This document shows positions 245 through 18,841 of a stretch of 39,157 nt of DNA, piece by piece (positions within the stretch are counted from its first letter, which is position 1; each line of letters starts with the position of its first letter). The stretch spans positions 1-39,157 of the forward strand of contig CAOKPU010000026.1 in assembly GCA_948470755.1 (NCBI GenBank). Direction: 5' to 3'. Source of the DNA: an uncultured Lachnospiraceae bacterium (GTDB lineage Bacteria > Bacillota > Clostridia > Lachnospirales > Lachnospiraceae). The notes below the pieces were generated by a model that made no database searches, had not been told where the DNA came from, and saw nothing but the letters and a program-made list of their open reading frames with translations. Position numbers and translations under genes: made by a program.

Positions 245-1402
245 TCAAATGCCGGCTTTTTTGTACCGCTCTGCCATCTCATCCAAAGTCGCGCACTCTA
301 CCAACGGCGCCTTCCCTACAGAGCCGAACTGCACGATCAGCGTTCCCACTACTTCCTTTACTCCCGCTTCGATGCAGCCTGTAATGGCCGCCACATCTTC
401 ATCAGGAACAACCCCTTTCATCAAAGTTTCCATAATGGGGGTCAAAAATACCCGGGGATCCACCTGCGTCTTATTCTTTTCCAGCAGCTCATAAATCTTT
501 CCGATGGACGGGCTGCTTTGTTTTTCCGGATATTTCGCGAAAAACTCTTTCATATTTCTCGTTACTGCCAGACGGATATCGGTATCTACGTTGATTTTCC
601 CGATCCCGCATGGAATCGCCTGCTTCAGCTCATCTACGGAAATGCCGTACGCATTCTGCACATCTCCTCCCAAGGCATTGATCTCGTCTACGATATACTT
701 CGGGACGGTGGACGAACCATGGGATACCAGTACGCCGAATATATTTTCATGATTCATGCATTCTTTGATCGCAATGGCGATTTCCTTGCGCAGTTTTACA
801 TTCTTCCCTTTGGAAGGGCCGTGCATAGTGCCATAAGAAATAGCCAGGCAATCCACCTTTGTCTTACGGAAGAACTCCACCGCATTCATCGGGTTCGTAT
901 ATGTGGAGGAAGCCGAGAATACGTGGTCTTCCACTCCCGCCAGCACGCCGAGTTCCCCTTCTACTGTAATTCCCCTTTCATGGGCGTATTTTACGACTTC
1001 CCTTGTCAGTTCCATATTCTCCTCAAAAGGAAGGGAAGAGCCATCGATCATTACAGAAGTATAGCCGCCTTCAATTGCCGCTTTTACCGAATCGAAGTCC
1101 TTGCCGTGATCCAGATGGAGGACGACCGGCACCGGGGAGTTTTCCCCATATTTTTTTACCGCCGCAGCGATATTTTTTGCCCCGATCTTCTTATCCTCCA
1201 GCGTCGCATTCAGGAAATCGGTCCTTCCTCCCATAAAGCCGTTAGCCAGGTCCGCCCCTTGCAGGATCGCCGCCGAACGGAACATCTCATGCACCTCGAT
1301 CACGGCCTTCGCCTGGGCCACCGCATTTACGTTAAAAGCGCCCTGCGCAAAATGATATTTATCCGTTGTTTCCAACAACGGTCTTAAAGGTATTAACGCC
1401 AT
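245..1402 (-). CDS. Class II (zinc) ketose-bisphosphate aldolase-like protein
   Basis: The 385-residue product has class II aldolase signatures: HLDHGKD with the catalytic Asp and zinc-ligand His, GELG, the HG motif in SYGTMHG, VSHGSS, and the phosphate-binding stretch IGKINVDTDIRLA. The family reversibly cleaves a ketose 1,6-bisphosphate to DHAP and an aldehyde phosphate. It is much longer than GatY/KbaY-type enzymes (about 285 aa), with extra residues between VSHGSS and IGKINVDTD and a C-terminal extension of roughly 90 residues. The ATG at 1402 is chosen because AAGGAGGAAGA precedes it; the upstream in-frame ATG at 1429 lacks such a site. It is the last gene of the operon, 139 bp after nagA. 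Fructose-, tagatose- or another ketose-bisphosphate are all possible substrates. Confidence 0.88.
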   Translation of the reverse strand: MALIPLRPLLETTDKYHFAQGAFNVNAVAQAKAVIEVHEMFRSAAILQGADLANGFMGGRTDFLNATLEDKKIGAKNIAAAVKKYGENSPVPVVLHLDHGKDFDSVKAAIEGGYTSVMIDGSSLPFEENMELTREVVKYAHERGITVEGELGVLAGVEDHVFSASSTYTNPMNAVEFFRKTKVDCLAISYGTMHGPSKGKNVKLRKEIAIAIKECMNHENIFGVLVSHGSSTVPKYIVDEINALGGDVQNAYGISVDELKQAIPCGIGKINVDTDIRLAVTRNMKEFFAKYPEKQSSPSIGKIYELLEKNKTQVDPRVFLTPIMETLMKGVVPDEDVAAITGCIEAGVKEVVGTLIVQFGSVGKAPLVECATLDEMAERYKKAGI

Positions 1403-1440
1403 TGTCTTCCTCCTTATTATGTCATACATAAATTATTGCC

Positions 1441-1488
1441 AAAGCCGGCTTTCCTGACATTTGCCTGATGCATAAAAAGCCGGCTTTT
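1441..1488. repeat. Repeated 12-bp palindrome in the nagA-aldolase gap
   Basis: AAAGCCGGCTTT occurs at 1441-1452 and 1476-1487. Each copy is self-complementary and the two can pair with each other across a 23-nt loop. No T-run follows on the minus strand, so it is not a standard terminator. An RNA-processing or stability hairpin between nagA and the aldolase gene is possible. Confidence 0.5.
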
Positions 1489-1541
1489 GCCTTTTCTTTT
1501 GTTCATAAGCTAAAAAGCCGCCCTTTTTTCTCCCGCCCGTC

Positions 1542-2690
1542 TTATCTGCTGACTTGCTTTCCGCCGACAAAAGTATCATACACATTGTTTTCTTCATCCA
1601 GTATGACAAGATCCGCATCTTTCCCATCCGCAATGGAACCTTTTTTATCAAAGACGCCGATCAGCTTTGCCGGATTTTCCGTCAACAGCAAAAGGACTTG
1701 CTCTATCGGCCTGCCGGTAAACTTCAGGATGTTTTTCAAAGCCTGCCCTGTGGTCAGCGTGCTTCCCGCACGCACGCCGTTGGAGGCCAGTTTGGCGTCC
1801 CCGTCCACTACCACCACGTCATTTACTCCCAGTTTGTAATTCCCGTCAGGAAGCCCTGCCGCCATAATGGAATCGGTGATGGCCACCACTTTATCCATCC
1901 CCTTTGTCTTAAGCAGGAGACGCACCACGCCAGGGTGCAGATGCCGCCCGTCGCAGATAGCTTCGCAATAAATATCCGACTCCATAGCCGCCCCCATAAT
2001 GGCCGGAAAATGCTGGTGAAGCAGTTTCATTGCGTTGAAAATATGGGTGCAGGACGCCGCACCGTTTTCAATGGCTTTCATAGAAGTATCGTAATCCGCG
2101 CCGGAATGCCCGATGGCCACTACGATCCCCAGGTCTTTGATCGAAGGGATGGCGTCCACCATGCCGTCGATCTCCGGGGACACCGTCAAATACCGGATAT
2201 TCCCTTCCGCCGCCTCCTGATATTCCTTTAACAATCCTACGTCCGCATCCCTAAGGAGATGCTCCGGCATGGCCCCTTTAAACTCTTTTGCCAAAAAGGG
2301 GCCTTCCAAATGGATGCCGAGAAGGTCCGCCCCGTCATTTCCCATTGCTTTATGTTTCTTGAATTCGTCGATGCACCATAATGTCTGTTCTTTCGTATCC
2401 GTCAACACGGAACACAGCCATGAAGTGGTACCCTGGGTCGCCATAAAATGACCGATTTTTCCCAGTTCTTCCGCCGTTGCCGCATTTACGTCCACTCCTA
2501 CCGCGCCGTGGGTATGGATATCAAGAAAACCGGGAACCACCCGTTTTCCTTCCGCATCATATACTTTTGCCCCTTCTTTTGGCGTCTCTTCTTTCGGAAG
2601 GACATGAATGCGTCCTTCTTCCATGCCGATTGTTTTCTCCTGAAAACTTCCGTCTAAAAAGACTTTTCCGTTTATAATATACTGCTCCAT
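1542..2690 (-). CDS. nagA: N-acetylglucosamine-6-phosphate deacetylase-like amidohydrolase
   Basis: The product (382 aa) is a metal-dependent amidohydrolase of the NagA family, which removes acetate from N-acetylhexosamine 6-phosphates. Visible motifs are the metal-binding HTH at 59-61, HLEGPF at 127-132 (bridging Glu), His195 in IGHSG, His216 in CTHIFNAM, DGRHLHP near 248-253 and the catalytic Asp273 in ITDS. The HxH form resembles the Bacillus-type rather than the E. coli-type enzyme. The ATG at 2690 follows a GGAGGT site; a longer reading to 2744 would overlap the upstream gene. It sits 31 bp after the NagB-like gene. GlcNAc-6-P is the default substrate, but a GalNAc-6-P (AgaA-like) role would also fit. 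Confidence 0.88.
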   Translation of the reverse strand: MEQYIINGKVFLDGSFQEKTIGMEEGRIHVLPKEETPKEGAKVYDAEGKRVVPGFLDIHTHGAVGVDVNAATAEELGKIGHFMATQGTTSWLCSVLTDTKEQTLWCIDEFKKHKAMGNDGADLLGIHLEGPFLAKEFKGAMPEHLLRDADVGLLKEYQEAAEGNIRYLTVSPEIDGMVDAIPSIKDLGIVVAIGHSGADYDTSMKAIENGAASCTHIFNAMKLLHQHFPAIMGAAMESDIYCEAICDGRHLHPGVVRLLLKTKGMDKVVAITDSIMAAGLPDGNYKLGVNDVVVVDGDAKLASNGVRAGSTLTTGQALKNILKFTGRPIEQVLLLLTENPAKLIGVFDKKGSIADGKDADLVILDEENNVYDTFVGGKQVSR

Positions 2691-2721
2691 TCCGCTACCT
2701 CCATTTTTTCCATAACTTCTT

Positions 2722-3540
2722 TTATTCCGGGAGATTTGCAACAAACTCCGTAAACTTAATATTGATATCCGGGTGGGCCTGTAGAAGGCTTACCGGGAAA
2801 TGCGCCGTCGGTTCGCCATACGCCGCATGGCGCACTACGCTCCTATGCCAGTCGCGGAAGCAGCCCAGACGGATCTTCCTTGCGTGGGAAATCTCATAAA
2901 TGCCGATGGTAATACAGTAATGAGGCATATCGTCCAATGCGCCGTTCAGATCCCCAATGGAATTTACCGCCCTTGTTTCCTTCGATATATCCAATACTCT
3001 CGTCTTTAAGGCAAGGAATCCTTCCCCTGTCATCTCATCCTGCGGCTCGTTAAACGCCACATGGCCGTTGATCCCGATCCCTCCAAAAGCGATATCCACA
3101 CCGCCCAGTTTTTCGATCAGTTCCGGTATGTATTCCAAATGATTGGGATCCGGGAATACCCTCTGGCTTTCCGGCATCACCAGCTCCGGTTTTATCTTCG
3201 TATATACCACCCGGTCCATAAAGCCGCGGAAACTCAGCTTATGTCCCTTGTCAATCCATTGCTTATCGTCCGTTAAGTACTCGTCCATATTAATGAACCA
3301 TACATTTTTCAGGTCGATATTCCTGCTGTTTACCATATCCACAAAATAAGGATACTGGCCTACCGGGCCTACCGGGCAGATGAATACGGTTTTCTCCCCG
3401 AGCCCGTTCTTCCTCTCGATTTCCGCCGCCATCTCTTCCGCTATGGACCGGAATACAGCCGCATTATCTTCCATCACAATCAACGGGATCTTCGGGGCCT
3501 TTAACAACTCTTCTTTTGTGTAATAGTAATAATCATGCAT
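2722..3540 (-). CDS. NagB-like hexosamine-6-phosphate deaminase/isomerase
   Basis: The 272-residue product belongs to the NagB/6-phosphogluconolactonase superfamily. It shows MDEYL at 85-89, GGIGINGHVAFNEP at 153-166 and a C-terminal segment matching the NagB lid and SxLQxH region. In canonical NagB the motif reads GxDGHxAFNEP. Here the Asp is Asn158, while His160 and Glu165 are kept. The N-terminal phosphate loop, usually TGSTP, is PVGPVGQYP. It probably deaminates and isomerises an aminohexose 6-phosphate, but specificity may differ from glucosamine 6-phosphate; from memory, galactosamine-6-phosphate isomerases of the AgaI type also carry Asn there. The start at 3540 has an AGGAAAGG site. 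It lies between the LarA-like and NagA-like genes. Confidence 0.8.
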   Translation of the reverse strand: MHDYYYYTKEELLKAPKIPLIVMEDNAAVFRSIAEEMAAEIERKNGLGEKTVFICPVGPVGQYPYFVDMVNSRNIDLKNVWFINMDEYLTDDKQWIDKGHKLSFRGFMDRVVYTKIKPELVMPESQRVFPDPNHLEYIPELIEKLGGVDIAFGGIGINGHVAFNEPQDEMTGEGFLALKTRVLDISKETRAVNSIGDLNGALDDMPHYCITIGIYEISHARKIRLGCFRDWHRSVVRHAAYGEPTAHFPVSLLQAHPDINIKFTEFVANLPE

Positions 3541-3625
3541 AACCTTTCCTTCCTTTCTTTTGCGCCCTCGGACAATCTCCAAATAAACATGCCCAAAGAT
3601 GCTTTGCATCTTGCACGCGCCTGCC

Positions 3626-5077
3626 TTAACCGTTATAAACCTCGTCCTTCATCATCAAATGCACCGCGCTTTTCTTAAATGTGAGGGGAAGCGCAAGTAT
3701 ATTCGGGTTCTCCCCTACATATTTTTTCTTTGCATCTTCCAATGCCTCCTCTATCGTCGCCCTCGTCTTTAAACCCATGCCCCTTGCATACCCCGGTTCC
3801 TGGGCGCCGCAGATATAGATAGCGGAAGTGTTCATTTCCGCTATATGCCCGCAAGCTATCATGGAAAAGCCGTGGAACGGATGGAATGCATTGGCAAAGC
3901 GGTACTTGCGGATATATTCTTCGTTGGTGGCAAAATATTCGCCCAGCCTGTTCATATCGGGCAGCGTATTCATCTGATCCTTCTGGAACATATCGTACAT
4001 TTCCCTTAAATAAGGCCAAAGCTCATCATGGAAATATCCGTTGCAGATAGAAGAGCATATAATAACGCACTTATCGCTCATTACCCTTTTATGACGGATG
4101 ACTTGCGCCGAAAGCGCCTGCATCATCATGATCGGGTTCGTTCCCATCCCTTCCCCGTAATGGAAGAACTGGGGCATACCGAATATCATCACATCATATT
4201 TTTTCTCCGCAAAAGGCACATAAGTCCTCTTATCCGCCACTTTCCAGGATGCCGGCTGCATTTCTTTCGCATAGCCGGAGAAAATGGCAATCTGTCTGGA
4301 AGAAGTATCTAAAACCGCATCGCAGCAGAAAAATTTCTTGCCCATGCACTTTTCCATATGCTGCCCGATCTCATCAAACTTCGTCCGCATCAGGGAATGT
4401 CCGCTCACCGGCACAAAGTCCTTTTGATGCATTACTTTCGGCACATGATGGGAAGCAATCGAACGCCAATGGGTAATGCCCGTTGCACAATGCTTATAGC
4501 CGCCGGAATATCCCCCATAAGGGTTGCCCTGCGTATGCCCTATCAAAATTGCCACATCGCTGTCATACACATATTTATTCATCAATACCGGATCGCCCCT
4601 GTCCGTCGTTCCCAAATCCACCAGATGTTCATAATCCTCGCTGTCATGGTTGATGATCTGCCCGCAGTTCCAGAATTCATCAAAAAGTTCCTTCCCAAGC
4701 ACGCCTTTGATTTCCTGCTCCGTATTCTTCCGGTGCAGTCCATTGGAACAAATCAAAAGGATATCCTTCTTCTCCACCCCTGCCGCATACAGTTCCTTCA
4801 AAATCAGCTTAATTGATATTTTCCTATGGGAAGTAGGCTGTTCGCCCCCCTTTACCCTGTCCGGGAATACGATCGTAACCTTCGATCCCTTTTTCGCCAG
4901 CCTGGAAAGCGGCTCCATCCCCATGGGGTTCCGCAAAGACTCCAACGTCTTTTCTTCCAGCTCTTCTTCCGGGATATGCGGCGGATCCTCCACCGTCACC
5001 CCCGGAATAAATACATCCGTACTCTCCGGCAGCTCTGCCGCCATCGTACCCTGCCCGTACTCAAATTCCAACTTCAT
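3626..5077 (-). CDS. LarA-like (DUF2088) nickel-pincer racemase/epimerase
   Basis: The 483-residue product matches the lactate racemase LarA superfamily, whose characterised members use a nickel-pincer nucleotide to racemise or epimerise 2-hydroxyacids. Seen are FPDR at 71-74 (the D/R pair of the N-terminal motif), SNGLHR with His115, GGYSGGYK with Lys195 (the expected cofactor-linking lysine) and His211, 16 residues further, where the nickel-ligand His lies. Ten residues before Lys195, where lactate racemase has its second catalytic His, there is Asn185. The substrate is therefore probably not simple lactate; a sugar acid is plausible given the neighbours. The ATG at 5077 follows AAGGAAGGG. 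No larB, larC or larE maturation gene is in the window, so cofactor synthesis must be encoded elsewhere. Confidence 0.82.
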   Translation of the reverse strand: MKLEFEYGQGTMAAELPESTDVFIPGVTVEDPPHIPEEELEEKTLESLRNPMGMEPLSRLAKKGSKVTIVFPDRVKGGEQPTSHRKISIKLILKELYAAGVEKKDILLICSNGLHRKNTEQEIKGVLGKELFDEFWNCGQIINHDSEDYEHLVDLGTTDRGDPVLMNKYVYDSDVAILIGHTQGNPYGGYSGGYKHCATGITHWRSIASHHVPKVMHQKDFVPVSGHSLMRTKFDEIGQHMEKCMGKKFFCCDAVLDTSSRQIAIFSGYAKEMQPASWKVADKRTYVPFAEKKYDVMIFGMPQFFHYGEGMGTNPIMMMQALSAQVIRHKRVMSDKCVIICSSICNGYFHDELWPYLREMYDMFQKDQMNTLPDMNRLGEYFATNEEYIRKYRFANAFHPFHGFSMIACGHIAEMNTSAIYICGAQEPGYARGMGLKTRATIEEALEDAKKKYVGENPNILALPLTFKKSAVHLMMKDEVYNG

Positions 5078-5136
5078 AAACAATCCCTTCCTTTCCTTGC
5101 GTTATTTTCTATTGATTGCCGTAACAAAGCGTATCC

Positions 5137-5973
5137 TTACCGCCCCATATACATCCGGATGATTTCCAGATATTCATCCGGGTAAAACCCGATATCTCCC
5201 TGGAATCTGGTCAAAGCGATCAGGCCTCCGTCTATTTCCGGGATAGAAGCTAACATTGCCGCATTATCCGTTTTCAAACCTCCGCCGTAAGCTACCGCCA
5301 TTCCGCCGGTGCGTTCTTTCACAAACCGGGCGATCATCTGGATATAGTCCTTTCCTGCCGGCGTCTTTCCCGGGCCAATGGACCAGATCGGTTCATAGGC
5401 AATCGCCACTTTTGTGGCATCTACGTCTTTTAGCCCGATTTGCAACTGTTTCCCAAGGACTTCCTGCCACTTATCCTGTTCTTCCGCACTTTCCCCGATG
5501 CAGTACAAAACGGTCAGTCCGGCTTCCACGGCGGCTTTCACCTCCTGATTCAGAATCCGGTTCACCGCATCCGTATCGTTTACCCCGGCTTCCGCCATAA
5601 TGCCAAGCTTATCCCTGCGTTCTTCACAATGCCCTATTAACACGCTGGAACAGCCTAATGCTTTCATCGCTTTTCCCGTCCGGTTTGCGGTAAAAGCGCC
5701 AAAATTGCCGCCTTCCTTCACATCCTCCCTATGGATCCCCTGGGATCCGATCGCAAGGTTCCCGCCCGCATCCAATGCCCCAATGGCTGAAAGAAGATGG
5801 GCTTCCGGCAGGTACATCACAAACTCCGCTTCATCCTCCCCGTACTGAGCTAAAGCTTTTTTCGTATTTTCCACGATATAAGCGCCCCATTCCTTTATCG
5901 GCGCAATACTGTTCACGCCTCCCAGTCCCTTCGGAATATCAAACCTCTTCAAATTCAAATAAATATGCTTCAT
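5137..5973 (-). CDS. Triosephosphate isomerase-like protein (paralog type)
   Basis: The 278-residue product has a TIM-barrel fold signature: N7 and K9 in LNLK, His115 in GHCEERR (canonical GHSERR), CIGES, the catalytic Glu194 in YEPIWSIGPGKTP, and YGGGLKTDN where most TIMs have YGGSV. It is about 25 residues longer than usual, partly through an insertion after GHCEERR. The catalytic Lys/His/Glu triad is intact, so it should interconvert an aldose and a ketose phosphate. The changed phosphate loop and insertion suggest a specialised substrate, as in TIM paralogs of tetrose-phosphate (erythritol) pathways. The ATG at 5973 has AAAGGAG ten bases upstream; an ATG at 5997 lies before that site. A putative operator sits 35 bp upstream. 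The LarA-like gene starts 59 bp downstream. Confidence 0.85.
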   Translation of the reverse strand: MKHIYLNLKRFDIPKGLGGVNSIAPIKEWGAYIVENTKKALAQYGEDEAEFVMYLPEAHLLSAIGALDAGGNLAIGSQGIHREDVKEGGNFGAFTANRTGKAMKALGCSSVLIGHCEERRDKLGIMAEAGVNDTDAVNRILNQEVKAAVEAGLTVLYCIGESAEEQDKWQEVLGKQLQIGLKDVDATKVAIAYEPIWSIGPGKTPAGKDYIQMIARFVKERTGGMAVAYGGGLKTDNAAMLASIPEIDGGLIALTRFQGDIGFYPDEYLEIIRMYMGR

Positions 5974-6007
5974 CCCTGTCTGTCTCCTTTCCTGCATAAC
6001 AGCATTT

Positions 6008-6023
6008 AAACATTTGCATAAAC
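6008..6023. promoter_or_regulatory. Candidate LacI-type operator upstream of the TIM-like gene
   Basis: AAACATTTGCATAAAC at 6008-6023 matches AAACGTTTGCGTAAAC at 7435-7450 in 14 of 16 positions; both differences are G/A swaps. It lies in the 94-bp gap between the kinase-like and TIM-like genes. Two such sites in one cluster point to regulation by the adjacent LacI-family protein, possibly at an internal promoter. Confidence 0.55.
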
Positions 6024-6067
6024 CGTGGATCGTTAGCCATCCTGACGATTATTTTATGGACATCCCT

Positions 6068-7258
6068 TTAAATCCTGCTTTTGAGCGTTTGTTCCATTTC
6101 GTCCTTAAAACTTACCATTTCCGGCAGATCGCCATCGATCAACGGCCTGCACCACCGGACGAACTGACCGGTGATATCGTTACCTCTTTCATTTATATAG
6201 TTTTCCGGCATCACCCGTTCATTCAGCATGACCTCTTCAATCGGTATCAACGGTGTTTCTATCCCATATGCTTCCCCGGCTTTTCTCTTTATGCCTACCA
6301 TCACGCCTGTCCGCCCGTCCACTGCAGCCTTTACCGCTTCCCTGCCTACCAGGATCGCTTCCTCCCTGTCCACTTTTGACTGGAGCAGCATGGAAGTCCT
6401 CCCGCATAAACCCGGTTTTTCGCTTCTTGCCTTAATCCCCAGCTTCTTTATAACCAGTTCCGCCAGATAAGCGCTCACGTCCCCATAATAAACAGCCCGG
6501 TCCGTTTTAAAAATAGGCGGCACGATAGATTCTCCCTTTTCGTTGCGCAGCCCTTCGCTGACAACAACGACCACGCCCCCTAACTCATCATATAATTTCT
6601 TCACATCCTCCAAAAATTCTTCTTCATTAAAATTCCTCTCCGGAAGATAGATCAGATGCGGTGCATCACCCGGATTCTTCCGCGCCAATGCCGAAGCCGC
6701 CGTAATCCATCCCGCATTCCTTCCCATAGCCTCTATAACGCATACATGGATAGGCAGGGATTTTACATCAGCACCCACTTCCTTCGTTACGGTAGCAATA
6801 TATTTTGCGGCGCTGGGAAAGCCCGGAGCATGGTCGATAATGGAAATATCGTTATCCATGGTCTTTGGGATGCCCACGACATAGATCCCTTCCCCTTCGC
6901 ATACTTTGCTCACTTTTCCGCAAGTATCCATAGATCCGTTCCCGCCGTTAAACAATACATATTTAATGTTATTCTTTTTAAAGATATCCACCATGGCTTC
7001 ATATTGGTCTTGCTCCAACGGGAACCGTGAAGAGCCGATAGCCGTTCCCGGCGTCTGCAGGAGCCGTTCTATTTTCTCATCTTCCAAGGCTCCCATATCC
7101 AGGAAGTTTTCCGCCAATATCGCCTCCGAACCGCCAATCGCACCATAAATCTTCTGAATATCAGGATTCTCCTGCGCTTCCCTTATTACGCCGTACAAAG
7201 AAGCATTCAACACCGCCGTCGGCCCTCCGCCATGCACCACAAGTAAATTTCCTTCCAT
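6068..7258 (-). CDS. 6-phosphofructokinase-family sugar-phosphate kinase
   Basis: The 396-residue product is a PfkA-family enzyme, which phosphorylates fructose 6-phosphate or a similar ketose phosphate at C1. It starts with the nucleotide loop HGGGPTAVLNAS, then shows GGNGS at 105-109, PKTMDND at 131-137 with the catalytic Asp, GFPSAA, and MGRNAGW at 178-184. The Lys of PKTMDND is typical of pyrophosphate-using enzymes. The Gly of GGNGS is typical of ATP-using ones, where PPi enzymes have Asp (GGND/GGDD). The phosphoryl donor therefore cannot be settled by eye. The chosen ATG at 7258 has AAAGGAG 12 bases upstream; in-frame codons further upstream lack a site. It is the first gene of the operon and is divergent from the LacI-type regulator. 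Confidence 0.88.
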   Translation of the reverse strand: MEGNLLVVHGGGPTAVLNASLYGVIREAQENPDIQKIYGAIGGSEAILAENFLDMGALEDEKIERLLQTPGTAIGSSRFPLEQDQYEAMVDIFKKNNIKYVLFNGGNGSMDTCGKVSKVCEGEGIYVVGIPKTMDNDISIIDHAPGFPSAAKYIATVTKEVGADVKSLPIHVCVIEAMGRNAGWITAASALARKNPGDAPHLIYLPERNFNEEEFLEDVKKLYDELGGVVVVVSEGLRNEKGESIVPPIFKTDRAVYYGDVSAYLAELVIKKLGIKARSEKPGLCGRTSMLLQSKVDREEAILVGREAVKAAVDGRTGVMVGIKRKAGEAYGIETPLIPIEEVMLNERVMPENYINERGNDITGQFVRWCRPLIDGDLPEMVSFKDEMEQTLKSRI

Positions 7259-7397
7259 ATTACAACCATACTCCTTTCCCTTCGCCAGCCCATTTTCATT
7301 TTTTACACATCTTTTCCGCACAATCATGCTGTTCCTGCCCCATCCTGCCCCGTGCGGCGGGCAAACTTTCAAATGCCCGGATCTCATTTATAATAGT

Positions 7398-7425
7398 ATC
7401 ATACTCCCCTGCTTTTCCGTTGCAA
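7398..7425 (-). promoter_or_regulatory. Candidate promoter of the six-gene sugar operon
   Basis: On the minus strand TTGCAA (7420-7425) and TATGAT (7398-7403) are spaced by 16 bp, about 140 bp before the kinase-like start codon. The putative operator at 7434-7450 lies just upstream of the -35 box. Confidence 0.4.
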
Positions 7426-7433
7426 TTTTTACC

Positions 7434-7450
7434 CAAACGTTTGCGTAAAC
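7434..7450. promoter_or_regulatory. Candidate LacI-type operator in the divergent promoter region
   Basis: CAAACGTTTG at 7434-7443 is a perfect palindrome and sits inside AAACGTTTGCGTAAAC (7435-7450), which is nearly repeated at 6008-6023. It overlaps the probable -35 box of the regulator gene. This suggests autoregulation and control of the divergent operon. Confidence 0.6.
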
Positions 7451-7469
7451 ATTTCCCCCATGATACAAT
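7441..7469 (+). promoter_or_regulatory. Candidate promoter of the LacI-type regulator gene
   Basis: TTGCGT (7441-7446) and TACAAT (7464-7469) are separated by 17 bp and lie 35 bp before the ATG. The -35 box overlaps the palindromic operator. Confidence 0.5.
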
Positions 7470-7503
7470 AAATTATGTACAATAAAAAGGGAGGAGGGTT
7501 GTT

Positions 7504-8553
7504 ATGACGTTAAAAGAAATCGCTTCTTTGGCCGGCGTTTCCCCTTCCACAGTCTCCAGGGTCATCAACCATCCCGGCTCCAAAGCAGCAAGCCGGGAAG
7601 TGGAAAACAAAATATGGCAGATCATCCGTGAAACCGGCTATATCCCGGACGCCTCCGCCAGAAACTTGAAACTCCGCTCTGTTTTGGCGCAAAATCAGGC
7701 CAGGCAAAAGGCCATCGGCTGCATTCTCGCCCGGACTCATACTTCGGATCCTTTTTTTTCCAAAGTGACCAGGGGGTTGGAACGGGAAGCTTTGCGCAAC
7801 GGCTATACGGTAAAATATATTTTTTCCTATGAGGATCTTAGGAATCCGGATATCCAGGAGGCCATCCAGCAGACCAAAGTAGAAGGCGTAGCGCTTTTAG
7901 GACGCCCTGATTCCAAGATGCGTTCTTTCTTAAAGACGAATTATAAAAAAATCATTTATGCAGGGCTGAACAATATTGATTCGGAATTCGACCAGATTAC
8001 GTGCAATGCTTACCTTGCTTCCAAAACCGCCGTCAGCTATTTGGCGGAACTGGGGCATACCCATATCGCTTATTTAGGAGAGCGGAAAAATGAGATCCGT
8101 TACCGTGGTTATTTGGATGCGATTTCCCAACTCGCCCTGCCGCTTAACCGGGAACGCATCATCGACATCCATCTTTCCGCCGAGGACGGCTACCGGGCAG
8201 CCGCAAAGCTTTTATCCTCCACACGCGATGTCACCGCTTTATTCTGCGCCAACGACCTGACGGCCATCGGCGCCATGAAAGCAGCCAAAGAATCCGGCTG
8301 CCGCATTCCGGAAGAACTGTCCGTGATCGGCATTGACGATATCGAAACCTGCCAATATACTACCCCTATGCTCACCACCATCCATATCCCGATGGAAGAC
8401 ATGGGGATAATGACGGCCAAGATATTGATCGACCGGATTGAAACCGGAAAGCGGATCCCTATGAAAGTAGAACTTCCGTTCCGCCTGATCCGGCGGGGAA
8501 GCTGCGCAGCCCCGCCCTCCAAACCAAACCACCCGCCCCAGGCGATGGAATAG
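7504..8553 (+). CDS. LacI-family transcriptional regulator
   Basis: The 349-residue protein opens with a classic LacI helix-turn-helix (TLKEIASLAGVSPSTVSRV) and a hinge around residue 50. A periplasmic-binding-protein-like effector domain follows, including the family motifs ALFCANDLTAIGAMKA and PEELSVIGIDDIE. Such proteins bind palindromic operators and are released or recruited by a sugar or sugar phosphate. The strong site GGGAGGAGGG precedes the ATG. It is divergent from the six-gene operon and 44 bp upstream of the epimerase gene, so it most likely controls this cluster through the sites at 6008 and 7434. The effector cannot be read from sequence. Confidence 0.93.
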   Translation: MTLKEIASLAGVSPSTVSRVINHPGSKAASREVENKIWQIIRETGYIPDASARNLKLRSVLAQNQARQKAIGCILARTHTSDPFFSKVTRGLEREALRNGYTVKYIFSYEDLRNPDIQEAIQQTKVEGVALLGRPDSKMRSFLKTNYKKIIYAGLNNIDSEFDQITCNAYLASKTAVSYLAELGHTHIAYLGERKNEIRYRGYLDAISQLALPLNRERIIDIHLSAEDGYRAAAKLLSSTRDVTALFCANDLTAIGAMKAAKESGCRIPEELSVIGIDDIETCQYTTPMLTTIHIPMEDMGIMTAKILIDRIETGKRIPMKVELPFRLIRRGSCAAPPSKPNHPPQAME

Positions 8554-8597
8554 TTACCGCAAATGCTTAACCATAAAAAAGAAAGGATGAAATTATT

Positions 8598-9482
8598 ATG
8601 CAGCTCACTTTAAAAAGCCAAGGTTACACAGTCACCGTTGAATCCCTAGGCGCAGAATTGAAATCTTACAAAAATGAAAGCGGCAGGGAATTTATCTGGA
8701 ACTCCAACCCGGATTTCTGGCCCCGCTCCTCCCCGCTTCTATTTCCCTCCATCGGCAATCTGCGCGATGGAAAGACTATCATTAACGGAAAAGAATACGA
8801 GATCCCCAAACATGGCTTCGTCCGCGATATCGATATGGACCATGAAAAAGAAGCGGAGAACAAAATCACCTTTTCCTGCTGTTATAACGAGGAGACTTTA
8901 AAATGCTATCCCTTCCGGTTCCGTTTCCAACAGTCTTATGAACTGGACGGCCCTCTGCTTAGCACTTCCTATGTCATTACCAATGACGATGATAAAGATA
9001 TGTATTTCCATTTAGGCGCACATCCTGGTTTCATGTGCCCTCTGGAAGAAGGGGAAAGCTTCTCCGACTATGTACTTAAGTTCCCTTTCGAGGAAACATG
9101 CGACAGCCCGGTATATGACCTGGAAAACATGCAGTTTAACCCGGACAATACCAAAAGGTACTTAGACGACAGCGATACGATACAACTGGATTATTCCCTT
9201 TTTGATATTGACGCCATCGTATTCCCGCATTTAAAGTCCAAGAGCGTAACGCTGATGAATCCGGCTACAGGCAAGGGGATACAGATGGATTATCCTGATT
9301 TTTCCACCATCGCTTTTTGGACTCCTGCCCAGGTAAAAGCCCCCTTCCTATGCATGGAACCCTGGAACGGGGCTGCCATCTTTGCAGATGAGGATAATGA
9401 ATTCATCCACAAAAGGGATATCCAGACATTAAAGGCCGGGGAAAGCAGGACTTATCAGTTTACGATCCGCCTGCTCGTATAG
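8598..9482 (+). CDS. Aldose 1-epimerase (mutarotase) family protein
   Basis: The 294-residue product belongs to the galactose mutarotase-like superfamily of the LacX/YeaD kind. It has KHGFVRD, the conserved His in LGAHPGF, and a catalytic-type Glu in CMEPWNG. These proteins interconvert alpha and beta anomers of free aldoses or of hexose 6-phosphates. The ATG at 8598 has GAAAGGATG upstream. It lies directly after the LacI-type gene and probably shares its transcript, which fits a job of supplying the right anomer to the neighbouring sugar-phosphate enzymes. The exact sugar is unknown. Confidence 0.85.
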   Translation: MQLTLKSQGYTVTVESLGAELKSYKNESGREFIWNSNPDFWPRSSPLLFPSIGNLRDGKTIINGKEYEIPKHGFVRDIDMDHEKEAENKITFSCCYNEETLKCYPFRFRFQQSYELDGPLLSTSYVITNDDDKDMYFHLGAHPGFMCPLEEGESFSDYVLKFPFEETCDSPVYDLENMQFNPDNTKRYLDDSDTIQLDYSLFDIDAIVFPHLKSKSVTLMNPATGKGIQMDYPDFSTIAFWTPAQVKAPFLCMEPWNGAAIFADEDNEFIHKRDIQTLKAGESRTYQFTIRLLV

Positions 9483-9535
9483 GCCATACCGGATGGAAGA
9501 CCAATCATATTTTAAATATAAGGAAAAGAAACAAG

Positions 9536-9976
9536 ATGACAGAAACTATACTTATTTCTATAATCGACGGCCAGGGGGGAGGCATTGGGAAGCAACTGGT
9601 TGAAAAACTGGCTTCCGGCCTGCCAAAGGGGAAAAATATCATCATCCGCGCCCTTGGCACCAATGCGCTGGCTACCAATGCTATGCTAAAAGCCGGGGCC
9701 GACGACGGCGCAACCGGGGAAAACGCCATTGTATTCAATGCAGGGAAATCCCATATCATCGCCGGAGTAATGCCAATCGTCATGCCCCACTCCATTTTAG
9801 GCGAAGTAACGCCCCGCATGGCGGAAGCCATCGGCGCCAGCGATGCATTGAAAGTGCTGATCCCCCTGCCCAGGTGCAACACCCGGATCGCCGTACCTGG
9901 AACAGCCTCTTTAGGGCAGTGTATCGACCAGGCTGTAGAGATCATAAAAGAATATATCGAAAATCAGATCCCTTAA
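9536..9976 (+). CDS. DUF3842 family protein
   Basis: The 146-residue protein resembles the DUF3842 family of clostridia, whose function I do not know. It begins with IISIIDGQGGG-like sequence that looks like a glycine-rich nucleotide-binding turn after a first beta strand. It continues with IIRALGTNALATNAMLKAGADDGATGENA and a PHSILGEVTPRMAEAIG segment, consistent with a small alpha/beta fold. It lacks membrane segments and a signal peptide. The ATG at 9536 follows AAGGAAAAG. It is 53 bp downstream of the epimerase gene and may be the last gene of the lacI-epimerase transcript. Confidence 0.8.
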   Translation: MTETILISIIDGQGGGIGKQLVEKLASGLPKGKNIIIRALGTNALATNAMLKAGADDGATGENAIVFNAGKSHIIAGVMPIVMPHSILGEVTPRMAEAIGASDALKVLIPLPRCNTRIAVPGTASLGQCIDQAVEIIKEYIENQIP

Positions 9977-11950: not shown

Positions 11951-14398
11951 TTATTCCACCGTCACGCTGCAAGTATAAGAACGCCTGCCCATAACATCCC
12001 TTTTCTCTCCCGAAAGAACCACTTCTTCACAAAAATGGATATCGTGCGCGCTTGTTCCTACCATGACGTCCATAACAGTAGGTTCCACTACAAATTCCAT
12101 GTCTTCATTATAATAGCCAAGCTGCGCCGTATCTAAAGTAAATGTCACTTTCTTTTCTTCCCCTGCCGCCAAAGATATCCGTTTAAATCCGGCTAATTGT
12201 TTTACCGGGCGGATCACATGGGCTTTTTTCGTATGATAATAAAGCTGTACGACTTCATCCCCTTCCCGTTCCCCGGTATTTTTTACCGCAAGGGATACAA
12301 CGATCTTCCCATCCGTAGGCACATTCGTCTCTTCCAGACAAAAATCCTTCAGTTCAAAGGTTGTATAACTTAATCCATGGCCAAAACAGAATAACGGGCT
12401 GTCATCCTCATCCACATAACCGCCGCTGAAAATTGCGGAACCATAGCCTCCGCCGGCGCCCGCCCTGTTATAGCCGCTTCCCGTCCTATGGTTATAAGTT
12501 ACCGGAACCTGGCCCACGCTGCGGGGTACGGTCATCGTCATTTTCCCACCCGGGTTTGCGCTTCCGTCCAATACATCTGCAATTACTTTTCCGGCAAACT
12601 GTCCCGGCATAAATGCTTCCAACATACCGTCTACATGCTCACAAGCCCATGGAGTTGCAAAGATACCCGGCCCATAAAGAACCAACACTACCTTTTTCCC
12701 GGTTGCACACAAAGCCTCCAGCAACTTCTGCTGTACTCCGGGCAGATCCAGCTTGCAGCGATCCTTTCCTTCCCCTCCTGTCACATTGACCCAGCCGGAA
12801 TTGCCGCCGCAGGCAAAAACCACCACATCGCTTTCCTCTGCCGCTTTTACCGCTTCCGCAAACCCGGATTCATCCGGGCCTATGATATCGCATCCCTTCG
12901 CATAATTAACTTCAAACCGTCCTTCCAGCTCCTCTTTTAAGGAAACTGCCCCCATAGAACGCAGTACGGAATTCATATCCCCGATTTTCTTTTTTTCCTC
13001 CTCTGTCAATGCCTTAAAGAAAGATGCAAACGGGTTTGCCGCCTCATTATCTTTCGCCTTAGCGGCTTCATCCGCAATACCGTTAAAAGATACGGAATCA
13101 TTTCCGCTTGCCCCTGCCGAAAGCATCTCCACATAAGCCGGGAAAGTATAACCGCTTACAGGATAACGAAGACTGTCCGCATGGGGCCCGATTACCGCCA
13201 GCCTGCTTCCCTTTTTCAAGGGAAGGACTCCATTGTTTTTCAAAAGCACCAAAGATTTTGCCGCTATTTCTTCCGATAGCGCATTCTTCTTGCTGTTCGT
13301 CATTGCCTCTTTTACTTTTTCCACATCCACATAAGGATTCTCAAACAAACCATATTCAAACTTCACCTTCAATACGCGGCGCACCGATTCATCCAGAACC
13401 GATTCATCCAACTGGCCGGAGCGTACATACCGGGGAAGTTTGGCAAAAGAACCTCCTACCGGAATCTCCGTATCCGTTCCTGCTTTTTTTGCCAGATATC
13501 CCGCTTCTTCATAGGTATCTGCAATATGGAAATCCGTCAACGTCTTCATGATGCCGGCCCCGTCGGAAGTAAGGATCCCCTCAAATTTCATCGTATCGCG
13601 CAGTAAGTCATGGGCAATCGCCCGGTTCGCTACCACGCACATTCCATCGATCTCCGCATAATTCGCCATCACGGAACTTACGTCCGCTTCCCTCATAGCC
13701 GCCTCAAACGGTGTGGCAAAGACCTCATACAGCTCCCGGCTGTTTAACCGGGTCGTCGCCGTATTCAGCCCTCCCTGCGTCTCGGAATATCCTAGGAAAT
13801 GCTTGGCCACACAGGCCACGCCGTCTTTTTTATTTCCCTGCATCCCTTTGATATAATGGATTCCCATTTGGCTGATTAAATAAGGATCCTCTCCATAAGT
13901 CTCATAAGTGCGCCCCCATCTGGGATCCCTCGCCACATCGATGACAGGGCTCATTGCAGAATTAATGCCCACTGCTTTTGATTCCTGCCCGATAATTTTC
14001 GTCATTTCTTCCACAAGATCCGGATCCCATGTACATCCTGCATTGACCTGTGCCGGGAAAAGGGTGCCGCCCATAGCCGGGTACCCGCATAAATTCTCCG
14101 ACTGCAAAGCCACCGGGATTCCGAGCCTTGTTTTTTCCATAAAATATCTCTGTATTTTATTTGTCAGTTCCGCAATCTTCACCGGGTCCGCCAGCCCTGT
14201 AATGGAATATTGGGTAAACCGCCCATGTCCATTGGGATACTTTTCCTTAAGCAGTTCCTCCCAGCCATCCCCCGCCATTAGGATTTCATTCGTAAGATCG
14301 CCGCATAGCTGTGCCGCTTTTTCTTCCAACGTCATCCGCGAAAGCAGATCTTCTATCCTCTCCTCTATCGTATACCCCGCATCCTTATACACTTCCAT
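11951..14398 (-). CDS. Glycoside hydrolase family 3 beta-glycosidase
   Basis: The 815-residue enzyme has the full GH3 layout. An N-terminal barrel carries RWGRTYETYGEDP (160-172), the substrate-binding KH at 199-200 and the likely nucleophile Asp279 in LTSDGAG. A second alpha/beta domain follows (SLVLLKNNGVLPL to MPGQFAG), then a C-terminal fibronectin III-like domain containing FGHGLSYTTF. The family releases terminal beta-linked glucose (or xylose and similar) from oligosaccharides and glycosides. There is no signal peptide, so it works in the cytoplasm on imported substrate. The ATG at 14398 follows AAGGAG. It is the last gene after the symporter and phosphoglucose isomerase genes, which points to a beta-glucoside substrate. 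The nucleophile motif SDG rather than SDW is a mild departure. Confidence 0.92.
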   Translation of the reverse strand: MEVYKDAGYTIEERIEDLLSRMTLEEKAAQLCGDLTNEILMAGDGWEELLKEKYPNGHGRFTQYSITGLADPVKIAELTNKIQRYFMEKTRLGIPVALQSENLCGYPAMGGTLFPAQVNAGCTWDPDLVEEMTKIIGQESKAVGINSAMSPVIDVARDPRWGRTYETYGEDPYLISQMGIHYIKGMQGNKKDGVACVAKHFLGYSETQGGLNTATTRLNSRELYEVFATPFEAAMREADVSSVMANYAEIDGMCVVANRAIAHDLLRDTMKFEGILTSDGAGIMKTLTDFHIADTYEEAGYLAKKAGTDTEIPVGGSFAKLPRYVRSGQLDESVLDESVRRVLKVKFEYGLFENPYVDVEKVKEAMTNSKKNALSEEIAAKSLVLLKNNGVLPLKKGSRLAVIGPHADSLRYPVSGYTFPAYVEMLSAGASGNDSVSFNGIADEAAKAKDNEAANPFASFFKALTEEEKKKIGDMNSVLRSMGAVSLKEELEGRFEVNYAKGCDIIGPDESGFAEAVKAAEESDVVVFACGGNSGWVNVTGGEGKDRCKLDLPGVQQKLLEALCATGKKVVLVLYGPGIFATPWACEHVDGMLEAFMPGQFAGKVIADVLDGSANPGGKMTMTVPRSVGQVPVTYNHRTGSGYNRAGAGGGYGSAIFSGGYVDEDDSPLFCFGHGLSYTTFELKDFCLEETNVPTDGKIVVSLAVKNTGEREGDEVVQLYYHTKKAHVIRPVKQLAGFKRISLAAGEEKKVTFTLDTAQLGYYNEDMEFVVEPTVMDVMVGTSAHDIHFCEEVVLSGEKRDVMGRRSYTCSVTVE

Positions 14399-14488: not shown

Positions 14489-15748
14489 TCATCCCTGCTT
14501 CCCCAAAGCTTTAAACATCCACCCTTTATACGCCTCAACGCCCGGCTGGTCAAACGCATTCACTCCCATCAGCTTACAGGAGAGATAACACGCAAACTGG
14601 AAAAAATAAAATAACTGTCCAAAATGATAAGCATCCAGCCTGTCAATTTCCAGCGTAAAACACGGCATCTTCCTGCTGTGAGCCGTTACGGTAGCCTTAT
14701 ATGCTTCTTTATTGATATACCAAAAATCTTTCCCATCCAAATAATCAAAATAGTCCTTCTTCCCGTCGCTCTCCATAAGAAATGAATCCTGGCGTTCCTT
14801 TATATCCAGGAACGTTTCAAAAATGATCGGGGGGCCGTCCTGAAGGAACTGCCCTACCGAATGCAGTTCTTCCGAATATTCCCCCGCCACCGGAAAAATC
14901 CCCTTGCTCTCTTTCCCTTCGCTTTCCGCAAACAACTGGATCCACCATTTAAAAAAGTATTTGAACCTGGGTTCAAAACAAGCCAGCATTTCGATCCGGT
15001 ATCCCCGGTTATAGAAAAAATTACGCAGGCTGGCATACTGGTAGGCGATATTCCCCGGCGCATCTTCCTCATGCAGCTCTTTTTGCATATCATTCGCCCC
15101 ACGCACCAGTTCCCTTATGTCAATTCCCGCCACTGCCATAGGAAGCAGGCCCACATTGGAAATCGCCGTATACCTTCCGCCAATATTGTCGGGAAATTCC
15201 AAAAACATATAACCGTTGTCCTCACATAATTTTTCCAGGCTGCTTCCTGCCGTTCCTGTTGCAATAATGCGCTCCGCGGCCTTGCTTCCATATCTTTCGT
15301 GCAAATATTTGCGCAATACCCGGAAAGCCGCCCCCGGTTCCAACGTCTCAAAATTCTTAGCTATGCAATTAATATAGATGGACTTCCCCTCCAATTTCTC
15401 CAACGTCCGATTCAGTGCATGGGCCGAAAGCGTATTCCCGGCATATACGATTTCCGGCGTGCCGGGAAGCTGCAAAGCCTTTATCACGCTGCGGGCCGCG
15501 TTATTAGAACCTCCCACCCCGATCAGGACAAATACATCCGCATTCTGCCGGATATCCGCCGCCAGCATTTCCAGACGCCTTATCCTCTCTTCGCCGGCCC
15601 ACTCTTTGGTATCCAGCCATCCCTGACTGTCCTTATATTCCTCTTCCCCTTTCCGGGCAAGAGAAAGCACGCTTTTATTCCGGTCAGCAAAGCTGTCATA
15701 TTCTTTTTTCCATTCTTCCTCTTTGTTATGAATCCTCAGCTTTATCAT
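14489..15748 (-). CDS. pgi: Glucose-6-phosphate isomerase
   Basis: The 419-residue product interconverts glucose 6-phosphate and fructose 6-phosphate. Family motifs are GVGGSNNAARSV for phosphate binding, FPDNIGGRYTAISNVG, the catalytic Glu in QLFAESEGKESKG, the ring-opening His in EELHSVGQF, and the C-terminal Lys in DQPGVEAYK. The length is slightly below the 440-450 usual for Firmicute enzymes. The ATG at 15748 is preferred because GAGGTGG lies just before it; another ATG four codons upstream (15760) lacks this. It starts 21 bp after the symporter gene, so it is probably co-expressed to pass glucose freed by the GH3 enzyme into glycolysis. Confidence 0.93.
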   Translation of the reverse strand: MIKLRIHNKEEEWKKEYDSFADRNKSVLSLARKGEEEYKDSQGWLDTKEWAGEERIRRLEMLAADIRQNADVFVLIGVGGSNNAARSVIKALQLPGTPEIVYAGNTLSAHALNRTLEKLEGKSIYINCIAKNFETLEPGAAFRVLRKYLHERYGSKAAERIIATGTAGSSLEKLCEDNGYMFLEFPDNIGGRYTAISNVGLLPMAVAGIDIRELVRGANDMQKELHEEDAPGNIAYQYASLRNFFYNRGYRIEMLACFEPRFKYFFKWWIQLFAESEGKESKGIFPVAGEYSEELHSVGQFLQDGPPIIFETFLDIKERQDSFLMESDGKKDYFDYLDGKDFWYINKEAYKATVTAHSRKMPCFTLEIDRLDAYHFGQLFYFFQFACYLSCKLMGVNAFDQPGVEAYKGWMFKALGKQG

Positions 15749-15769
15749 GTTCCACCTCATCCACAGCCT

Positions 15770-17565: not shown

Positions 17566-18765
17566 TCAACACTCTAAAAAAAGCTTGCTGATAGCAAAAT
17601 AAGCCGCCCCTTTCGCCCCCCAGCCGGAGTCATAAGGTTGAAAGAAAATCTGTACCTCCTCTTCATTCAGCCCATAGAAATTAGCTTTTGCCGTACGCAA
17701 TAATTTTTCCCGGTTAGGCTTCTCCTTCATGATATAACCGTCCACCACAACGAACCCGGGATTGATCAGGTTTACCACATTCGCTAAGGCGATCCCCAAA
17801 AATCCAACCGCCTCATCCATCACCTGGATCACATCTTCATCCCCGTCCCGTTGGGCGTCCAGTATATCCTGTATGGTCAGCCGCCCTTTCTCATCCAGCC
17901 TCTCCCTTAACTTTGGGGCTGCCCCCTGCAGCAGCTTTTCCTGGCATTTTTCAAAAATAGCCCTTTCGCTTCCCACATCATCCACAGTCTTTTGGATCGT
18001 TTTTCCATCCTTATGAAAGCTGACGATCGTACGCCCCAGCTCGCCGGCCCCGGAAGTGCATCCCGATATGATATCGTTTTTTACCATCAAAGGGCAGGCA
18101 ACCCCTTTGGACACAAATAAATAGGCAAACGTATCCGCCTTTATCTTATGGGAACTCATCTCATATCCGATTGCCCTGATCCTTACATTATTATCAATAA
18201 TTACGGGGACGTTCAAAATCCCCTGTAAATCCTCCGCCAGATGCTTCCCTACCCATTCCTGCCTGAGGTTGCTTCTGATTACCCCGCTCCCGCAGTCAAT
18301 GAACCCCGGGAGTCCAATCCCAACCCCCAAAAACCTCTTTTCCTCTGCGAACCGCATGAGCTTCCGGATTTGTCCCTTAATATTTTGCAGCATCTTATCG
18401 TAATTCTCCGCACCTGGCGCTTCCTCCGAAAAGGCAATCACCTTTCCTTTCATATTCAGCAGTACCGCGCTTGTGGCATAAGGGCCAAGCTCCACTCCGA
18501 CCGCACATGCCGTATCCGCCCGGAATGCAATAGAGGCAGGCCTCCGGCCCATAGCGTTTACCAGATTATTTTCCGCCATCGGGATCTCTTCCAGGATTCC
18601 CTCCGAAAGCATTTCATTGACGCTGGTTGTTATGGTCGGCAGCGTCAGCCCCAACGCTTCCGCGATTCCGGTCCTCGTGGCATTCTCCGTACGGAATATC
18701 ATATTTTTAATCAATACACGGTTCCATCTTCTTGTTTCCAGCAGGCTGCTTCCCTTTTTATTCAT
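17566..18765 (-). CDS. ROK-family transcriptional repressor (XylR/NagC type)
   Basis: The 399-residue protein has an N-terminal winged helix-turn-helix (residues about 8-60, with TRTGIAEALGLTLPTITTSVNEMLSEGILEE) joined to a ROK sugar-kinase-like domain (GVGIGLPGFID, SGAGELG, LINPGFVVVDG). The kinase-type DxGxT loop reads VELGPYATS, and the Cys-rich zinc motif usual after GExGH is missing, so it is more likely a sensor than a kinase. The ATG at 18765 follows GGGGGAG. A further in-frame upstream stretch of about 90 codons is repeat DNA and is not counted. It probably represses the downstream glucoside operon via the TTAAAACTTTTAA sites. Confidence 0.9.
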   Translation of the reverse strand: MNKKGSSLLETRRWNRVLIKNMIFRTENATRTGIAEALGLTLPTITTSVNEMLSEGILEEIPMAENNLVNAMGRRPASIAFRADTACAVGVELGPYATSAVLLNMKGKVIAFSEEAPGAENYDKMLQNIKGQIRKLMRFAEEKRFLGVGIGLPGFIDCGSGVIRSNLRQEWVGKHLAEDLQGILNVPVIIDNNVRIRAIGYEMSSHKIKADTFAYLFVSKGVACPLMVKNDIISGCTSGAGELGRTIVSFHKDGKTIQKTVDDVGSERAIFEKCQEKLLQGAAPKLRERLDEKGRLTIQDILDAQRDGDEDVIQVMDEAVGFLGIALANVVNLINPGFVVVDGYIMKEKPNREKLLRTAKANFYGLNEEEVQIFFQPYDSGWGAKGAAYFAISKLFLEC

Positions 18766-18841
18766 CTTCCGTCTCCCCCTACATGTATATCCATCTGTAC
18801 AAATGGGCTGCCCCAGGAAAGTCTGTCCCTTTGGCGCTTTA

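Follow-up and report, generated by a model that had tools for sequence, protein, structure and literature searches.

A possible sulfoglycolysis-like pathway encoded around a one-histidine LarA-like protein in a conserved Lachnospiraceae operon

The window, that is, the whole stretch of DNA analyzed here, comprises 39,157 nucleotides of contig CAOKPU010000026.1 (assembly GCA_948470755.1) from an uncultured Lachnospiraceae bacterium. From position 7,258 down to 245, a single strand carries an operon for a phosphofructokinase (PFK), a triosephosphate isomerase (TIM)-like protein, a LarA-like protein, a NagB-like protein, the deacetylase NagA, and a class II aldolase. Our analysis supports the original prediction that this operon belongs to an accessory pathway with non-canonical enzymes and a regulator gene of its own, and finds the neighborhood conserved in other genomes. 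We give just under an even chance to this pathway being sulfoglycolysis-like, of the Embden-Meyerhof-Parnas (EMP) type, and acting on hexoses and N-acetylhexosamines in which the 6-phosphate gives way to an anionic sulfur group, either a sulfonate or a sulfate ester, at C6. Gene content, conservation, the co-occurrence of LarA and TIM, the loss of phosphate ligands with catalytic residues kept, and the downstream transporter genes are all seen at the level of sequence. From these we infer what the substrates are, which group sits at C6, in what order the steps run, and what LarA catalyzes.

Conservation was assessed in 95 loci, made up of 24 genome regions and 71 of 80 further loci after removal of duplicates. 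Because the 80 are the best of 569 relatives, the set leans to close relatives; at least 19 kb of DNA is available in 69 of the 95. Left out of the counts were regions L036 and L037 (30-31% identity, different motifs) and nine loci in which the C-terminal part of LarA duplicates another locus exactly (L062, L071, L078, L079, L081, L082, L103, L114, and L115); some of these duplicates come from the same genome, L082 and L114 not necessarily. L071 is from Anaerobium acetethylicum, an organism that carries the operon. Genes were counted with tblastn, as antisense open reading frames hide genes from ORF-based counts, and each label rests on resemblance to a single selected sequence or a handful of them rather than on curated models. 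Near LarA, we found TIM in 85 loci, PFK in 68, aldolase in 65, LacI in 56, NagA in 51, NagB in 49, SsuA-like genes in 45, TauE-like genes in 24, PGI-like (phosphoglucose isomerase) genes in 18, the epimerase in 17, sulfatase-like genes in 9, GH3 in 6, and anaerobic sulfatase maturase-like, GPH symporter, and DUF3842 genes in 3 each. The gene neighborhood, whose recurrence in other genomes had been put forward as a check, is thus present. NagA/NagB occur without PGI in 44 loci, together with it in 15, PGI occurs alone in 3, and 33 have neither. Among the 10 loci without TIM, L032, L034, and L109 carry a HIBADH-family reductase near LarA, L099, L102, and L107 are represented by under 12 kb of DNA, and the remaining four are L086, L091, L097, and L127. 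DUF3842 was rejected as a pathway member and probably lies outside it, given its match in just 3 of the 95 loci.

At the genome level, LarA (E <= 1e-40) and the TIM-like protein (E <= 1e-45) each occur in 18 of 250 family genomes, and the two sets are identical. The chance of such identity is about 1e-27 if the sets are independent and the genomes unrelated, a figure that kinship raises. The NagB-like protein is also present in 18 of the 250 genomes, 14 of them in common with the LarA set. Across the phylum, LarA was found at the E <= 1e-40 threshold in 10 of 398 genomes including that of the window, two of the 10 belonging to the excluded 30-31% group.

Comparison of residues, numbered after textbook or E. 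coli sequences and with the roles that we take the phosphate ligands and catalytic positions to have, indicates that the sugar's 6-phosphate end is altered in several of the enzymes, since columns for ligands of the C6 or C3 phosphate are replaced in TIM, NagA, NagB, PGI, and, in part, PFK. Much less change is seen at the C1-phosphate end and among residues of catalysis. In the TIM-like protein, the catalytic residues H95 and E165 are retained in 85/85 sequences. Its phosphate residues are replaced (S211 by G in 85/85, G232 by A in 84/85, G233 by L in 85/85), giving GGG and AL in place of the phosphate loops GGS and GG (84-85/85), loop 6 has P for T (85/85), and an Arg follows the altered loop in 81/85. 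N7 and K9 are invariant (14/14), but automatic alignments do not place them on the E. coli Asn/Lys pair. The NagB-like protein keeps D72, H143, and E148 (48/48), with D141, replaced by N in 45/48, as the exception among retained catalytic residues; G43-T44 has no counterpart and K208 is His in all 48. The R172 column holds G in 46/48, and an adjoining ETR motif may supply an Arg. Around the K208 position, an FRxWHR segment is invariant in 11/11, its W and H in 48/48. NagA shows R227 replaced by His with D273 and H251 retained (54/54 each). The loop SKSGTTTEP of the genome's own canonical PGI reads AKNFETLEP in the PGI-like protein of the window, and in 18/18 sequences follows A-K-N/D-F-variable-T-L-E-P, the changes S to A, S to N/D, and G to F each occurring in all 18. 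In PFK, two of four residues are replaced (R162 by His and H249 by Ile or Leu, 59/59 each), and position G104, presumably the ATP/pyrophosphate switch, is Gly in 59/59. The aldolase motifs HGSS and NVDTD, which we take to bind the phosphate of dihydroxyacetone phosphate (DHAP), are retained in the consensus of 57 sequences.

The presence of the six-gene operon, the divergent LacI regulator, the epimerase, and the DUF3842 protein is borne out by coordinates and by Pfam and NCBIfam matches. The gaps between the operon genes measure 94, 59, 85, 31, and 142 bases, stop codons being counted with the genes. The departure of the enzymes from family consensus, also part of the original prediction, holds for TIM, NagB, and LarA. 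Several NCBIfam models match the TIM-like and NagB-like proteins, none reaching its cut-off, and the LarA-like protein exceeds the cut-off in 0 of 5 NCBIfam models; the NagB-like protein has no Pfam match at E 0.001. It does not hold for NagA (298 bits against a TIGR00221 cut-off of 225.65), PFK, and the aldolase, which each pass an NCBIfam cut-off, and the TIM-like protein scores over its Pfam gathering threshold. A LarA N-domain match was obtained for the LarA-like protein in Pfam.

The best PDB matches of the LarA-like protein are 9q3j (E 3.2e-267) and 9q2u (E 7e-264), which, judging from chain names and PMC12611868, represent LarA_Bw from Blautia wexlerae and LarA_Sp from Streptococcus plurextorum. 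H115, N185, K195, H211, H306, and Y307 are invariant in the window protein and 15 relatives (16/16). The first catalytic His (H115) is therefore retained and Asn (N185) stands at the position of the second, so that the pair of catalytic His of LarA racemases dependent on the nickel-pincer nucleotide (NPN) is incomplete; the NPN-tethering Lys (K195) and the nickel-ligand His (H211) are both present. By these residues, the protein belongs to the one-histidine LarA subfamily published in 2025, in which Asn substitutes the second catalytic His (PMC12611868). According to that article, the subfamily has different active-site residues, holds a 316.5-Da ligand to which no identity was given, does not racemize lactate, and has TIM, aldolase, NagB-like, PFK, and GPI (glucose-phosphate isomerase) genes as neighbors, no substrate having been found; sugar ABC transporters lie near its more distant members. 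Our locus thus shares with LarA_Bw and LarA_Sp both the subfamily and these neighbor families. The part of the article consulted makes no mention of sulfonate-type transporters, of phosphate-site losses in the neighbors, of the exact co-occurrence with TIM, or of missing LarC and LarE. The linkage of LarA to the TIM, PFK, aldolase, and NagB genes has consequently been published already. New here are the pathway proposal, the identical LarA and TIM genome sets, the replaced phosphate-site residues, the sulfur-type genes near LarA, and the LarA genomes that lack LarC and a LarE over cut-off. The claim of an undescribed pathway stands insofar as no description was found in the searchable literature, and falls for the linkage of LarA with glycolysis genes.

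Several further observations concern LarA itself. In L027/L028 (region L054), it is matched as two pieces (query 98-482 and 1-117) and the gene looks split. L036 and L037 represent a distant LarA group (30-31%) in which the NPN-tether Lys is absent from the alignment; by eye, their neighborhood contains a gene resembling an FAD oxidoreductase, and also an ABC transporter of the SsuABC type. One scan of viral contigs with a single-protein query, which reaches close relatives only, found no LarA relative.

The operon had been described as lacking a transporter, with import left to another locus, and both statements lose support here. The window begins at a contig end, and the apparent end of the operon is a contig break. 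In L056, the aldolase leads straight into genes for a permease, an ATPase, an SsuA-like binding protein, a histidine kinase, a response regulator, and a second binding protein; L058, L060, L061, and L106 have the same order after the aldolase, and L068 its first part only. The window aldolase end aligns with L056 up to 14650, and contig C10 of the same genome opens with those transporter genes, its bases 185 onward matching L056 from 14685. Window end and C10 start have two stretches in common, one of 37 and one of 63 bases, that are 89% identical. Given the L056 order and the start of C10, the operon is predicted to extend past the window into genes for an ABC transporter of the SsuABC/TauABC type, followed by those for a two-component system and a chemoreceptor-like protein. 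The last gene of this run (L141:5590-7530) has a chemotaxis signaling domain (PF00015) fused to an NMT1/SsuA-like domain (PF09084). For the binding protein, the best model is TIGR01728 (aliphatic sulfonate), with 131 bits, followed by taurine binding proteins; for the permease, the best models are SaoP, TauC, and SsuC, all below cut-off. At the other end of the operon, the proposed operator pair turned out to be one near-palindrome matching in two overlapping registers. The operator scan gave 2 matches (up to 2 mismatches) against 0.63 expected, and 11 of 100 shuffles reach 2. The sequence GTTTACGCAAACGTTT is present in the lacI-pfk gap of the window and 8 close relatives (L055-L061, L106), and the core AAACGTTT in 17/17 lacI-pfk gaps examined.

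In the pathway that we propose, the ABC transporter at the end of the operon would import the substrate, and the GPH symporter with the GH3 glycosidase would serve glycosides. The amino form would be deacetylated by the NagA-like and deaminated and isomerized by the NagB-like enzyme, and the plain form isomerized by the PGI-like enzyme, each yielding a 6-sulfo(oxy)-ketohexose. The PFK-like kinase would phosphorylate C1 of this ketohexose, and the class II aldolase would cleave the product into DHAP and a glyceraldehyde analogue that bears the sulfur, either 3-sulfolactaldehyde or glyceraldehyde-3-sulfate. This three-carbon fragment would be isomerized by the TIM-like protein, LarA would act next and perhaps help to expel sulfite or sulfate, and TauE would export the sulfur product.

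Sulfur oxyanions are indicated by the type of importer, the TauE-like genes, and the sulfatases with their maturase. In 65 of the 95 loci, at least one gene of these kinds (SsuA-like, TauE-like, sulfatase, maturase) stands close to LarA, and PF01925 confirms TauE, cited as a sulfite exporter in PMC12421959, in L029, L040, L109, L127, and the copy of the window's genome. That genome (3.0 Mb) has one TauE, on contig C32 (L142:113-6765, from the contig end), where it is followed by an anaerobic sulfatase maturase (PRK13758, 452 bits, cut-off 441), a Tct-like three-gene transporter run called by eye, whose first protein has no Pfam match, and a sulfatase. Near ALDO-TIM-LarA in Lacrimispora (L090), a TauE-maturase pair is accompanied by two sulfatases and a LarC-like gene; L111 has such a pair, one sulfatase, and a LarC-like gene. 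A sulfonate would fit the importer and TauE, and a sulfate ester both the sulfatases and the fact that GlcNAc-6-sulfate (GlcNAc, N-acetylglucosamine) is abundant in mucin. We place most weight on a sulfur group and make no choice between sulfonate and sulfate. Separately, L030 has an arylsulfotransferase-family protein (PF05935; L030:5487-6926) in its LarA/TIM neighborhood.

The majority of loci combine LarA with PFK and/or aldolase as front end. Other front ends are a split transketolase with a transaldolase-family protein and RpiB, without TIM (L127), a split transketolase with TIM and LarA and a distant aldolase match further off (L118, L128), and an SDR-family protein with an SMP-30 lactonase and DapA-family aldolases (L030). 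By gene family, they resemble the known sulfoquinovose-cutting routes, which a 2026 review gives as EMP, TAL (transaldolase), TK (transketolase), and ED (Entner-Doudoroff) (PMC12890257).

Several observations weigh against a sulfur group at C6. In the stretch examined, 30 of the 95 loci are without any of the four gene types (SsuA-like, TauE-like, sulfatase, maturase), and TauE-like and SsuA-like genes stand together in just 9. TauE is present in 14/14 control genomes, the binding protein stays under the TIGR01728 cut-off of 163.5 bits, and SsuA-like binding proteins and TauE-family proteins carry other anions too. The C6 site is partly preserved: PFK keeps R243 and R252 (59/59), and the C6-side Arg (DPR) is retained in the aldolase consensus. 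The front-end families also act on other sugars and on sugar acids. The dehydratase of L032 scores over the cut-off of the ordinary IlvD model, and the reductases of L032 and L109 match tartronate-semialdehyde reductase models best, below cut-off, with the sulfolactaldehyde reductase model lower. Within the loci, E. coli YihQ, YihS, YihT, and YihU are matched in 0 of 95 each, and YihV gives just one weak match (25-26% identity). A single literature search, judged by part of the titles, returned no natural 6-sulfonated N-acetylhexosamine. Sulfoquinovose as sole substrate is weakened by the lack of a YihQ match.

The loss of phosphate ligands is equally compatible with a C6 carboxylate. Hexuronates or N-acetylhexosaminuronates would then give DHAP and tartronate semialdehyde, the TIM-like protein would convert the latter to hydroxypyruvate, and LarA would be an alpha-hydroxyacid epimerase acting on the uronate C5 or on the C3 acid. 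The known substrates of LarA are alpha-hydroxy acids (PMC7583248), the L032 and L109 reductases beside LarA are closest to 2-hydroxy-3-oxopropionate reductases (all below cut-off), and the GPH symporter of the window also matches a glucuronide transporter model, below cut-off. We nevertheless consider this reading unlikely: the SsuABC-like importer, TauE, and the sulfatase and maturase genes would require another reason, and LarA lacks the second catalytic His, PMC12611868 reporting different active-site residues and no lactate racemization. The joint occurrence of TauE and SsuA in just 9 of 95 loci and the ordinary L032 dehydratase slightly raise it, and slightly lower our estimate for the sulfur group.

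If the accessory route handled ordinary amino-sugar phosphates of the GlcNAc-6-phosphate type, with LarA as a side sugar-acid epimerase, this would agree with NagA passing the TIGR00221 nagA cut-off and retaining D273 and H251. This substrate, favored originally, now appears quite improbable in view of the phosphate-site replacements in TIM (84-85/85), NagA (54/54), NagB (48/48), and PGI, the change of NagB D141 to N in 45/48, and the lack of a phosphotransferase system component or hexokinase among the operon's own genes. It is very unlikely that the sugars are neutral at C6, their ketose-1-phosphate being cut into DHAP and glyceraldehyde and the TIM-like protein interconverting glyceraldehyde and dihydroxyacetone. 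Lost phosphate ligands are also compatible with no anion at all, but the FRxWHR segment of NagB (11/11; W and H 48/48) and the Arg of TIM (81/85) could be anion ligands, and the SsuABC-like importer and TauE would be left unexplained.

Returning to the sulfur group, it is rather unlikely that the TIM-like/LarA pair forms a new anaerobic, non-radical means of releasing sulfite (or sulfate) from a C3 organosulfur fragment. The TIM-like protein would make an enediol or ketone, and LarA, shuttling hydride or even free of NPN, would complete a redox-neutral elimination. If true, the entire six-carbon skeleton, not half of it, would feed the fermenter.

Genes for the NPN cofactor are unevenly distributed. 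In the window's genome (92.5% complete), LarC (PF01969) has 0 matches and LarE has none over the TIGR00268 cut-off, with weak sub-threshold matches only. Among the 18 LarA genomes, 13 have LarC (missing in the window's genome, G511, G516, G594, and G639) and 12 have LarE over the cut-off (missing in the same genomes and G459), so that five lack both; weak LarE-type matches occur in all 18 and in all 14 control genomes. LarC is found in 153 of the 250 family genomes, and was rejected as a co-occurring partner, since 13/18 LarA genomes against 140/232 others show no clear association. In the genomes searched from the 80-locus set, 23 of 27 have LarC; it was not found in Lachnospiraceae bacterium 28-4 (L057), Enterocloster alcoholdehydrogenati (L115), Dielma fastidiosa (L118), and Holdemania sp. 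(L128). The NPN ligands of LarA are invariant despite these LarC/LarE-less genomes, in which either the cofactor is obtained otherwise, or the genes were missed, or LarA works without NPN. Such genomes raise the question of whether one-histidine LarA needs the nickel cofactor.

Compared with sulfo-EMP and sulfo-EMP2, as given in PMC12890257, the pathway has in common an isomerase, a C1 kinase, a DHAP-yielding aldolase, a transporter, and a mutarotase-like gene, and its aldolase is class II as in EMP2. It differs from sulfo-EMP in the lack of YihQ/S/T/U matches, a PfkA- rather than PfkB-family kinase, PGI- and NagB-type isomerases with NagA/NagB entry, and a TIM-like protein with LarA where known routes use sulfolactaldehyde reductase or dehydrogenase. 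With the E. coli GlcNAc route (NagA-NagB-PFK-FBA-TIM), it shares the enzyme families and most catalytic residues, whereas the C6-phosphate ligands are replaced, LarA is added, and the transporter genes are SsuABC-like. In the open-licence literature, no work was found joining sulfoglycolysis with lactate racemase or, judged by titles, nickel-pincer with sulfonate. A term search of the 2026 review did not find nickel, triosephosphate, N-acetyl, TauE, phosphofructokinase, or sulfite lyase, and the one LarA hit in PMC12421959 is an author name. Our proposal offers a class of substrates that can be tested for the one-histidine LarA subfamily, so far an orphan. If true, it would mean that Lachnospiraceae and spirochaetes of the gut have a further, PFK/NagB-type branch for breaking down sulfur sugars. 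Released sulfite or sulfonates in the gut can feed hydrogen sulfide producers.

Table 1. Positions of the operon genes and other features in the window
Feature	Position	Strand	Basis
Contig end; 40-76 and 92-154 resemble start of the genome's contig C10	1..244	no strand	
Class II ketose-1-phosphate-type aldolase; final gene before contig end	245..1399	-	TIGR00167
NagA-family deacetylase, R227 to His	1542..2690	-	TIGR00221 and residue columns
NagB-like deaminase/isomerase, phosphate site changed	2722..3540	-	NCBIfam below cut-off and residue columns
LarA-like protein, one-histidine subfamily (H115, N185, K195, H211)	3626..5077	-	PDB matches and alignment
TIM-like isomerase, phosphate loops changed	5137..5973	-	Pfam and residue columns
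PFK-family kinase; operon gene 1	6068..7258	-	PRK14072 (PPi-PFK model) passed
LacI-type operator-like palindrome, lacI-pfk gap	7431..7446	no strand	
LacI-family regulator, divergent from operon	7504..8553	+	
Aldose 1-epimerase (mutarotase) family protein	8598..9482	+	
DUF3842 protein	9536..9976	+	
GH3 glycosidase	11951..14398	-	NCBIfam beta-xylosidase/beta-glucosidase models, all below cut-off
PGI-like isomerase paralog, phosphate loop changed	14489..15748	-	PRK14097 below cut-off
GPH-family sugar symporter adjoining PGI-like gene	15770..17176	-	
ROK-family regulator of PGI/GPH group; start uncertain	17566..18801	-	

The GH3/PGI-like/GPH/ROK group (11951-18801) may belong to the same picture, as in the close relative L055 the GPH, PGI-like, and GH3 genes adjoin the DUF3842-epimerase-LacI-PFK-TIM-LarA-aldolase run; NagA and NagB are without match in that locus. 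In L046, L048, and L052, the PGI-like gene lies inside the LarA cluster. The PGI-like protein of the window scores 414.6 bits, below the PRK14097 cut-off of 443, and the canonical PGI of the genome, on contig C40, 720 bits. An Rfam scan of the window gave nothing at gathering thresholds, and a promoter and terminator scan, with 16 against 14.4 and 13 against 11.7 expected from shuffles, was not used. Two 93-base units, 98.9% identical, lie upstream of the ROK gene (18842-18934 and 18977-19069), and a small membrane protein at 10350-10916 resembles, by eye, the S component of an energy-coupling factor (ECF) transporter.

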